Source: Bacillota bacterium
GTDB lineage: Bacteria; Bacillota; Sulfobacillia; JAJZYS01; JAJZLH01
Assembly (NCBI GenBank): GCA_021850485.1
Contig: JAJZLY010000025.1
Coordinates: 1-64,000 of the forward strand
Length of the DNA stretch: 64,000 nucleotides
Direction of reading: 5' to 3'
Each line of letters starts with the position of its first letter. Position 1 is the first letter of the stretch. The notes beneath the pieces were generated by a model that saw only the letters and a list, made by a program, of their open reading frames with translations, was not told where the DNA came from and searched no databases. This document shows positions 35,099 to 37,515 of this stretch, piece by piece. Position numbers and translations under genes: made by a program.

Positions 35099-35818
35099 GT
35101 GAAAGTTGGGCGGCTACCCCTGTGGGTGGCGCTTGTCAGTTGGTGCGCCATGCTGGTGCTGATTGGGCTGGTCACCGCCTACGCCGTGCCGCTGCACTCT
35201 GCCTTTTGGCTTCGGATGCTCCCCTGGCTGTTGGCCCGCACCTCCGGCCTGGCTGCCTTTGTGTTGCTCACCTTGATCGTCGTGCTGGGCATTTTGCTCT
35301 CACATCCTCGCAATCTGGTGGAGTGGAAATTCTCCAAGATCATCATCGTCTGGCACCGCTATCTCACCGTCTTGACCTTTGGCCTGGTCGCCCTGCACAT
35401 TGGGGCGATCATCGCCGACTCCTATGCCAAAGTGGGCCTTTTGGGGGCGGCCATCCCCGGGCTGTCCGCCTATCGCACCTTGCCCGTGGCCCTGGGCACC
35501 ATTACCCTTTACGGTATGATCCTGCTGACTACCACAGCCGCCAATCCGAAGTGGCTGGGCGGGGCCCGCTGGCTGACGGTGCATCGTTTTTCCATCGCCG
35601 TTTTTGTCGTAGCCTGGATGCATGGGGTGCTGGCCGGAACGGACACGCTGGCTTTCACGCCTATGTACATTCTGGCTGGCGGTGCTGTCGGTTTTGCGTA
35701 CGCCGGACGCTGGTGGATTGACCGGACGCTGCCACCGCGACCGGACCCTGGGCCTGCCCGCACTGCCCCACTAGAGCGTACGGACGGTACGAGTGCGATC
35801 CCCGGGGGTACAAGCTGA
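35099..35818 (+). CDS. Ferric reductase-like transmembrane heme protein
   Basis: Predicted multi-spanning membrane cytochrome b-type protein of the ferric-reductase/NOX transmembrane superfamily. The 239-residue product has about six hydrophobic segments and four helix-embedded histidines in VWHRYLTV, ALHIGAI, TVHRFSI and WMHGVLAG, the arrangement expected to ligate two hemes. It has no cytoplasmic FAD/NADPH domain. Three tandem GTG codons (35093, 35096, 35099) can start; 35099 has the best spacing from GAAGGGGGG. The track ORF extends wrongly into dapA. The stop overlaps the next gene (TGATG). With two small anchored proteins and ApbE it likely exchanges electrons with an extracytoplasmic flavin; this is inference. 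Confidence 0.8.
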   Translation: MKVGRLPLWVALVSWCAMLVLIGLVTAYAVPLHSAFWLRMLPWLLARTSGLAAFVLLTLIVVLGILLSHPRNLVEWKFSKIIIVWHRYLTVLTFGLVALHIGAIIADSYAKVGLLGAAIPGLSAYRTLPVALGTITLYGMILLTTTAANPKWLGGARWLTVHRFSIAVFVVAWMHGVLAGTDTLAFTPMYILAGGAVGFAYAGRWWIDRTLPPRPDPGPARTAPLERTDGTSAIPGGTS

Positions 35819-36201
35819 TGAGACGTGGACTACGGCAGATCCTGGTGGTGACAGGGGTGGTCTCGGCGCTGGCCGCCGGCAGCGACGCACTGCTGGTGGC
35901 GCAGCATGAGCCGCCGCCGACCACGGTCGCCCGCACCGCCAGTCAACTCAGCCAGGTGTTGGCCAAGCAACAACAGGTGAATGCCACGCTGACTGCCACC
36001 ATCAGCGCTCAGGCCACGAGCAGCGTACAGTTGACTGCTCAGGCCCAGAGCTTGGAAGCGCAGATTGCCACAGGAATGGCTGCACTCAAACGGATGAACC
36101 TGGCCTCACCTTCGGTTTTGGCTCCGGTGGTCAAGGCTCAGACTGTAACCGGGGCCTCTGGGGGCGGAGGAGGGGACACCAGCAGTGGCGGAGACAACTG
36201 A
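35818..36201 (+). CDS. Small membrane-anchored coiled-coil protein with TGASG tail (1)
   Basis: Unrecognised 127-residue protein. Residues about 6-28 are a hydrophobic anchor (ILVVTGVVSALAAGS region). Residues 38-100 are Ala/Gln/Leu/Thr-rich with heptad character (SQLSQVLAKQQQVNATL), likely an extracytoplasmic coiled coil. The C-terminus is a flexible Gly/Ser tail containing TVTGASGGGGG. TGAS resembles the end of the ApbE flavinylation sequon Dxx(S/T)GA(T/S), without the Asp and without an FMN_bind domain. It is tightly coupled to the heme protein before it and to a similar small gene after it (17-base overlap). Function unknown; an FMN-carrying wire protein is a hypothesis. Confidence 0.7.
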   Translation: MRRGLRQILVVTGVVSALAAGSDALLVAQHEPPPTTVARTASQLSQVLAKQQQVNATLTATISAQATSSVQLTAQAQSLEAQIATGMAALKRMNLASPSVLAPVVKAQTVTGASGGGGGDTSSGGDN

Positions 36202-36577
36202 CGGCGTCCAGTGGCATCGGTTGCGCCTTGGCGTCGGTGCGGTGGCGGTTGCCTATACCGTGTTACTGCAGCCAGTAGCGAGCAGCCTGCGAGCCCTGGA
36301 TGCCTCCTACACCCGCCAAGCTCAGATGGTCCACGAAATTCAGGTTTTGGAACGAAAAAACCTCAGTTTGGAAGCAACCATCAAGCGGGCCGATCAGAGC
36401 CTGCACAATAAGGCTCGGGTGCTGGCCCAGCTGTCGGCCCAACTCGCCGCCATCCAGCGCCAGGAGCAAACCATTTCCGCACAGATTCAAATCTCAGCCG
36501 GACCGACTGTGACCTTGCCCAGCACGGGCGGCAGCTTGCAGCCGGTCACCACCACTGGGGCCTCTGGTAAACCATGA
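36185..36577 (+). CDS. Small membrane-anchored coiled-coil protein with TGASG tail (2)
   Basis: Unrecognised 130-residue protein with the same plan as its neighbour: hydrophobic anchor at residues about 14-35 (GVGAVAVAYTVLLQPVA), a coiled coil at 38-100 (HEIQVLERKNLSLEATIK), then a Ser/Thr/Pro/Gly tail ending PVTTTGASGKP at the extreme C-terminus. Overall sequence identity to the first small protein is low apart from the TGASG tail. The start is GTG at 36185 inside the previous gene; the stop overlaps the apbE start (ATGA). The coiled coils could pair the two proteins. Confidence 0.7.
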   Translation: MAETTDGVQWHRLRLGVGAVAVAYTVLLQPVASSLRALDASYTRQAQMVHEIQVLERKNLSLEATIKRADQSLHNKARVLAQLSAQLAAIQRQEQTISAQIQISAGPTVTLPSTGGSLQPVTTTGASGKP

Positions 36578-37515
36578 CCGAAGCCGCTCCCGGGGACTTT
36601 CGCTGGCGGGCGATGGCGTCGCCAGTTCAGCTCTTGGTGCCGGACCTGCCCGCTGATCTAGGCCGCGTGCTTGCCTCGGCCGTCGCCCGGGATCTGCTGG
36701 ACAGCGAGCAGGCGATGTCCCGATTTTGGGCGAGTAGTGATCTGTGGCGTGCGAATAGTTCCTTGGGCGAGTGGGTGACTGTTCCCAGGCGGCTGGTTCA
36801 GGCCCTGGCATTGGCCGAGCGGGCCCGGCGCATCACGAATGGTTTGTTCGATGCAGCAGTGCTGACCACACTGGAAGCATACGGCTATCCGGGAGCCCCA
36901 CTTCCTGCGTCTCAATATCAGCCGCCAAACGGCGCCCGAGTTCGACTTGCTCCTCGTCAGGGACTGGCCCGCCTGGAGCAGCCGATCGACCTGGGCGGTA
37001 TCGGCAAGGGCCTGGCCCTGCGCTGGGCTGGACGGATTGCCAGCGAACAGACTCAGACGTTTCTCCTCAACGCCGGCGGCGACATCGTGATGAAGGGCGG
37101 CGGCGGAGACGGGGCTGGCTGGCTGGTGGGCGTAGAGGATCCGTTCGACCTCGCGGCCGTGCGCGCAGTACTGCGCCTGAGCGGCGACCTGGCTTGTTGC
37201 ACCTCATCATTGGCCCGCAGGCGCTGGCTACGAGAAGGCCGCCAGGTTCACCACCTGATTGACCCGCGTACCCAACAGCCAGCCGAGGTCGACCTGATGG
37301 CCGTGACGGTGGTCGGGCCGGATCCTGCTTGGGCTGAGGTGTACTCCAAGGTGCTCTTCATGCATGGCTCGGACGCGATCGCCGAGAGGGCAGGGCAATG
37401 GGCCGTTTTGTGGATCGATGCCGAGGGCCGCATCGGCTGGACCGAGGCCATGCAGCCGCTGATTGCAGCCCTCAGTCCGGTGCCTAAACCCGAGGCGTCC
37501 TTGCCACAAGGGTAG
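36574..37515 (+). CDS. apbE: FAD:protein FMN transferase, ApbE family
   Basis: ApbE enzymes transfer FMN from FAD to Ser/Thr of target proteins. The 313-residue product shows AMASPVQLLVPD near residue 13, EQAMSRFWASSDLWRAN near 48, DLGGIGKGLALRW near 138, LLNAGGDIVMKGGG near 160 and HHLIDPRTQQPAEV near 228, the standard family blocks. The late metal-site segment reads WAEVYSKVLF where many family members have A-D-x-x-S-T. No signal peptide or lipobox is present, unlike many exported ApbE proteins. It is last in a four-gene coupled operon whose most likely targets are the two TGASG-tailed small proteins, since no FMN_bind-domain gene occurs in the window. Confidence 0.88.
   Translation: MTEAAPGDFRWRAMASPVQLLVPDLPADLGRVLASAVARDLLDSEQAMSRFWASSDLWRANSSLGEWVTVPRRLVQALALAERARRITNGLFDAAVLTTLEAYGYPGAPLPASQYQPPNGARVRLAPRQGLARLEQPIDLGGIGKGLALRWAGRIASEQTQTFLLNAGGDIVMKGGGGDGAGWLVGVEDPFDLAAVRAVLRLSGDLACCTSSLARRRWLREGRQVHHLIDPRTQQPAEVDLMAVTVVGPDPAWAEVYSKVLFMHGSDAIAERAGQWAVLWIDAEGRIGWTEAMQPLIAALSPVPKPEASLPQG

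Follow-up and report, generated by a model that had tools for sequence, protein, structure and literature searches.

What does an FAD:protein FMN transferase of the ApbE family flavinylate when its genome offers none of four familiar substrate domains? This question is raised by four tightly packed plus-strand genes in the window (the whole stretch of 64,000 nucleotides analyzed here), which encode a membrane cytochrome, two small proteins (P1 and P2) and an ApbE. The genome, 1.6 Mb in size and with an estimated completeness of 97%, contains no other ApbE. A search covering four substrate domains (FMN_bind, NqrB/RnfD, DUF2271 and DUF3570) found none of them in the genome or in P1 and P2. When the whole genome was searched at DNA level with a degenerate pattern for DxxSGAT, 44 matches came back compared to 37 for a reversed-pattern control; this is near chance level, so that no alternative substrate is obvious. 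The situation is not unique, as about 4% of surveyed genomes carry apbE yet no known substrate (PMC8238504).

Results and Discussion

Organization of the locus

All four genes overlap or abut their neighbors (the cytochrome stop and the P1 start share position 35818). The features are as follows:

35108-35818, plus strand: ferric-reductase-like / MsrQ-like two-heme membrane cytochrome (homology from about 35108; open frame from 34796)
35818-36201, plus strand: P1, 127 amino acids, with an N-terminal hydrophobic/signal segment, a coiled-coil-like middle, a Gly/Asp-rich C-terminus and candidate tail sequon 1 (from translation and orthologues)
36139-36162, plus strand: P1 tail motif Q-T-V-T-G-A-S-G (from the sequence), predicted FMN acceptor Ser codon TCT at 36157-36159
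36166-36175, plus strand: Shine-Dalgarno-like GGAGGAGGGG for P2, lying within the Gly codons behind the P1 tail motif (from the sequence)
36185-36577, plus strand: P2, 130 amino acids, GTG start, with an N-terminal membrane anchor, one long helix, a flexible linker and candidate terminal sequon 2 (from translation and AlphaFold model)
36545-36574, plus strand: P2 tail V-T-T-T-G-A-S-G-K-P, the last residues of the protein (from the sequence); codon TCT at 36563-36565 encodes the predicted FMN acceptor Ser
36574-37515, plus strand: ApbE family FAD:protein FMN transferase (PF02424, E 4e-43), its start overlapping the P2 stop (ATGA)

The tails of P1 and P2

P1 ends in AQTVTGASGGGGGDTSSGGDN and P2 in QPVTTTGASGKP. 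As a preliminary description of this DNA had stated, the two proteins resemble each other at their C-termini only: one single BLASTP comparison gave no significant similarity (E 0.09), and its best alignment terminates in the common TGASG. Neither protein matches a Pfam or NCBIfam family above cut-off, and no Pfam family was found for P2 in 28 homologues; matches to GAS, GspM, SlyX and similar families were rejected as sub-threshold coiled-coil matches. Both tails contain the acceptor motif [S/T]GA[S/T], which is kept among orthologues. The Asp that the strict sequon places three residues before the first Ser/Thr is missing, and Gln (P1) and Val (P2) stand in its place, just as first described. 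The AlphaFold model of P2 consists of a single helix (residues 10-103) followed by residues 104-130 without secondary structure (pLDDT about 61), in agreement with the earlier view of the tail as unstructured; the P2 tail is thus predicted to lack structure.

The N-termini of P1 and P2 resemble signal or anchor segments preceded by positive charge, which argues for a location of the tails outside the membrane. Twin Arg residues are present in two P1 orthologues (TRRLL and FRRAL) and in several P2 proteins (RR), and the window genome encodes TatC. The carriers may be exported by Tat, but the twin Arg is not shared by all orthologues.

Within the order, the same four-gene set was found in two genomes, where the P1/P2 tails read ATTGASG/TTTGASG. 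In two further genomes (loci L119 and L120) cytochrome-P1-P2 or P1-P2 are located on a contig separate from the ApbE orthologue, and the tails read AVTGASG/ATSGASG and TVTGASG/TTSGASG. Both tails retain [T/S]GASG although the orthologous bodies are only about 30-34% identical: in P1 (four orthologous loci) TGASG is 100% identical versus 30% for the body, and in P2 (five orthologous loci) 88% versus 34%. The P2 TGASG varies only by an exchange of its initial T for S, which fits [S/T]GA[S/T]. From two genomes of the same genus ApbE, cytochrome and P2 are missing together.

Tails across phyla

For a broader view 80 loci from many phyla were collected by ApbE similarity alone; the tail was never used as a query. 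One or two small tail proteins are encoded in 38 of the 80, mostly directly upstream of apbE, and the linkage recurs over three phyla (Bacillota, Actinomycetota and Chloroflexota). The check proposed at the outset, whether the tail is kept in homologues while the rest drifts, thus gave a positive answer both within the order and across these phyla. The consensus is P-x-x-[H/Q/N/D]-[A/T]-T-T-G-A-S or a close variant, also written P-x-[V/T]-[H/Q]-[A/T]-T-T-G-A-S-[G/S]. P2-type proteins end 0-7 residues past the tail Ser, and most P1-type proteins continue past the motif for 11-62 residues that are acidic or rich in Gly. Among 274 ORFs whose ends lie just upstream of ApbE-related genes, 38 carry the strict motif [ST]GA[ST] in their last 25 residues, versus 24 out of 3528 ORFs elsewhere (Fisher p 7e-29, only indicative because the ORFs are not independent). 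Antisense ORFs at this place number 259, and a single one of them has the motif. The suspicion that two copies next to apbE are no accident is hereby substantiated.

A set of 59 curated tails was chosen by a pattern fixing [S/T]-x-A-[S/T] and mostly requiring a nearby Pro, so that conservation of those columns is partly circular. The columns left free by the pattern show His/Gln at position -3 (the Asp position) in 38 of 59 tails, Ala/Thr at -2 in 55 and Gly at +1 in 45; in the remaining 14 tails K, R, S, T or H replaces the Gly. In detail, position -3 is occupied by H (26), Q (12), A (5), S (4), D (3), N (3) and others. Asp is found in both tails of L053 and in P1 of L040 (3 of the 59), and additionally in both tails of L062, where A is replaced by S. 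Absence of the Asp is therefore a recurrent feature of the tail proteins. Some P1 homologues lack the motif (L044, L051, L058, L064, L075 and L079).

Tails also occur on other proteins. In L037 (2330-2932) and L072 (3307-3606) a protein type unlike P1 and P2 is encoded near ApbE and ends in PAVHASSGASG and KVHAKTGASG, respectively, an apparent independent gain of the tail. In Alicyclobacillus tolerans (L055, 5388-5798) a small PepSY-like protein with an internal VNTGASG is encoded directly upstream of apbE, possibly a further type of substrate.

The ApbE lineage and its farther relatives

The window ApbE matches PF02424 with 148 bits, retrieves solved ApbE structures in profile searches and carries HHLIDPRT, in accordance with the HxIDP motif. 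No signal peptide or lipobox was found; the N-terminus is not hydrophobic, and the start is set by the ATGA overlap with P2. Judged by eye, most relatives likewise lack a signal peptide. Cytosolic ApbEs are known besides the extracytosolic type. The ADxxxT of solved ApbEs (ADALST in TM1553), whose Asp and Thr we take to be the metal ligands of known ApbEs, reads AEVYSK in the window, and most of L036-L104 likewise have Glu/Lys at the aligned positions (AEVxSK). We rejected the idea that this exchange is peculiar to tail loci, since loci that do not belong to the TGAS group, those of Streptomyces among them, show it as well.

In the ApbE tree all labelled tail loci fall into one group of 47 rows (support 98/95), together with nine unlabelled rows; none of the 28 rows outside bears a TGAS-type label. 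Among the unlabelled rows, L039 comes from a genome (G005) whose tails lie elsewhere (L120), L062 has the GSS form of the tail, L092 and L065 are truncated where their contigs end, and L081 and L067 have the tails TTKASGR and TGGSGKP. Residues at FDP[R/T] and TS[S/G] differ between this group and the farther loci described next; in the window ApbE the former site has Ala. Such differences would suit a shift in the recognized tail, but ancestry is a confounder.

Farther loci (Streptomyces, Nocardia, Chloroflexota and Patescibacteria) encode small proteins ending in T-[R/K/H]-x-S. Examples beside apbE/cytochrome are VTRSSGS, TTTRAS, RTHAS, PRTRMS and RKTKTS, on small transmembrane proteins that often have an Asp-rich partner. 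The motif lies at or near the C-terminus in L090, L100 and L101 (Streptomyces), L104 (Nocardia), L077, L103, L093, L086, L099, L102, L110 and L081. These proteins may represent a wider family of Ser-terminal tails. In the Patescibacteria loci (L086, L099, L102, L106 and L110) a PF01794-like cytochrome accompanies a signal-less ApbE, and most of these loci encode tail-like proteins; Patescibacteria (candidate-phyla-radiation) have been reported to be poor in extracytosolic flavinylation.

The initial idea that the tail may serve as a sequon is supported by this conservation, which makes TGAS a candidate ApbE sequon. More forms of the motif exist than first assumed, as illustrated by the replaceable Gly.

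The cytochrome

At family level the cytochrome corresponds to the MsrQ-like type that Meheust et al. described (PMC8238504). The window protein alone has no Pfam match at E<=0.01, PF01794 included; it aligns full-length with the homologue adjoining P1-P2 in related genomes, and among 39 homologues PF01794 matches 16 and the b561-like PF01292 five. Their 39-row alignment contains invariant W, R and G as well as four His, H83/H97 and H159/H172, in pairs 14 and 13 residues apart. The closest PDB matches of the AlphaFold model (pLDDT 89) are the NADPH oxidases SpNOX and NOX5, STEAP and cytochrome b561, with weak E-values (best 0.047).

Proposed mechanism

A TGAS tail that is conserved while the protein bodies drift, beside a flavin-attaching enzyme, probably marks flexible flavin-carrying arms. 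We therefore propose that the four genes form a flavin-based electron-transfer unit in which the tail Ser is flavinylated by ApbE and the arms are served by the cytochrome, and we assign this reading a probability of roughly 0.7. It draws on the gene set, the peptide-level conservation of the tails, their linkage to one ApbE clade, the structure prediction for the P2 tail and the invariant His pairs. The signal-less ApbE would transfer FMN from FAD to the Ser of the T-G-A-S tails of P1 and P2; given the missing signal peptide, FMN would be attached before export, unless the topology is reversed. Each of the two proteins would then form a tethered flavin arm outside the membrane, with the tail presumably facing outward. 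In P2 a flexible linker would join the membrane anchor and long helix to the FMN at the C-terminus; in P1 the FMN would come after a signal/anchor segment and a helix and be followed by an acidic end. The two-heme MsrQ-like cytochrome would supply these arms with electrons, to be passed on to an extracellular acceptor.

The chemistry appears plausible from what is known of ApbE. Exchange of the Asp for Ala in a known substrate has a minor effect only, and Thr is preferred as acceptor over Ser, which is accepted less well (PMC12052999). A tag of 7 residues at a protein terminus was flavinylated (Tong et al., described in PMC12052999), and the FMN reductase of L. lactis has natural sequons on an unstructured C-terminal extension (PMC11334425). 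Several points count against the proposal: the Asp is absent from both window tails, the Gly is variable and farther relatives show T-[R/K]-x-S, the acceptor is Ser in spite of the preference of ApbE for Thr, the metal-ligand positions of the enzyme are altered, some P1 homologues are without the motif, and the ApbE is signal-less although its carriers look exported.

In a more general form the proposal would describe widespread redox carriers without a flavin-binding fold: a tethered helix with FMN-Ser on a disordered arm, two arms per cytochrome, and a signal-less ApbE lineage reading a shifted [H/Q/N/D]xxT-[G/K/R]-A-S (T-[R/K]-x-S in Streptomyces/Patescibacteria). We regard the odds of this generalization as slightly better than even.

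Alternative explanations

The tail could instead be a docking or assembly peptide for ApbE or the cytochrome that is not itself flavinylated, with ApbE serving another protein. Such a role would agree with the altered metal-ligand positions and with the fact that the invariant in the widest set is T-x-x-S, not the full sequon. It is nevertheless unlikely, as the four known substrate domains are absent elsewhere in the genome, [S/T]GA[S/T] with an occasional Asp is the ApbE acceptor motif, and loci with two tails, often placed right at the last residue, suit acceptors better than one docking site. Still less credit is due to another modification or a sorting signal that keeps the tail while the adjacency of apbE is incidental. 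O-glycosylation of Thr/Ser/Pro-rich linkers would be an example, and Actinomycetota linkers are indeed rich in Pro/Ala/Ser/Thr; yet only the terminal motif is conserved and the linker is not, and the linkage to apbE is repeated over three phyla.

It is highly improbable that the likeness of the tails arose as a side effect of signals in the DNA (ribosome-binding site, overlapping-gene coupling) or of low-complexity Gly/Ser/Thr tails: the genes do overlap and GGAGGAGGGG, 9 bases ahead of the P2 GTG start at 36185, may have caused the poly-Gly of P1, but not its TGAS, and the idea is contradicted by codon diversity (43 TGAS/SGAS tails are spelled by 38 different 12-mers with synonymous codons throughout, hence selection acts on the peptide), by a distance from motif to gene end that varies from 0 to 62 codons and by the near absence of the motif from antisense ORFs. 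Flavinylation of the tails by ApbE remains the preferred reading.

Relation to known systems

MsrQ-like flavinylation systems, common in Actinobacteria, also combine apbE with a PF01794-type two-heme membrane cytochrome; they typically include an FMN-binding-domain protein, in whose place the window has two small tail proteins and of which the genome has none (PMC8238504). Lactococcus FMN_red, which is flavinylated (Huang et al. 2024, PMC11334425), likewise has its sequon(s) on an unstructured C-terminal extension, there next to a flavin-binding fold of a kind not seen in P1 and P2. The engineered flavin tag (Tong et al., described in PMC12052999) demonstrates that a short terminal motif is enough for ApbE; it is artificial and includes the Asp, whereas the tails, mostly with His/Gln, would be its natural counterpart. 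With FMN_bind proteins (NqrC, RnfG; PF04205) P1 and P2 have the [S/T]GA[S/T] acceptor motif and, as proposed here, the role of an extracytosolic redox carrier in common, but they are without an FMN_bind domain or folded flavin site, and their motif is C-terminal.

Conclusions

Both the enzyme and the cytochrome belong to known types. In the literature that could be searched, which excludes subscription papers and preprints, the substrate class is not described: apart from FMN_red, no comparable ApbE substrate, C-terminal or disordered, was found. That such substrates were overlooked fits the removal of ApbE genes without a signal peptide from the 2021 survey (PMC8238504). If our reading is true, the tail proteins represent a substrate class missed by profile searches because almost only the last ten residues are conserved. 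They would also be natural short tags, possibly independent of the Asp, and would imply that a flavin mounted on a flexible arm can serve electron transfer even where no folded site binds it, in the way known from lipoyl and biotinyl arms.
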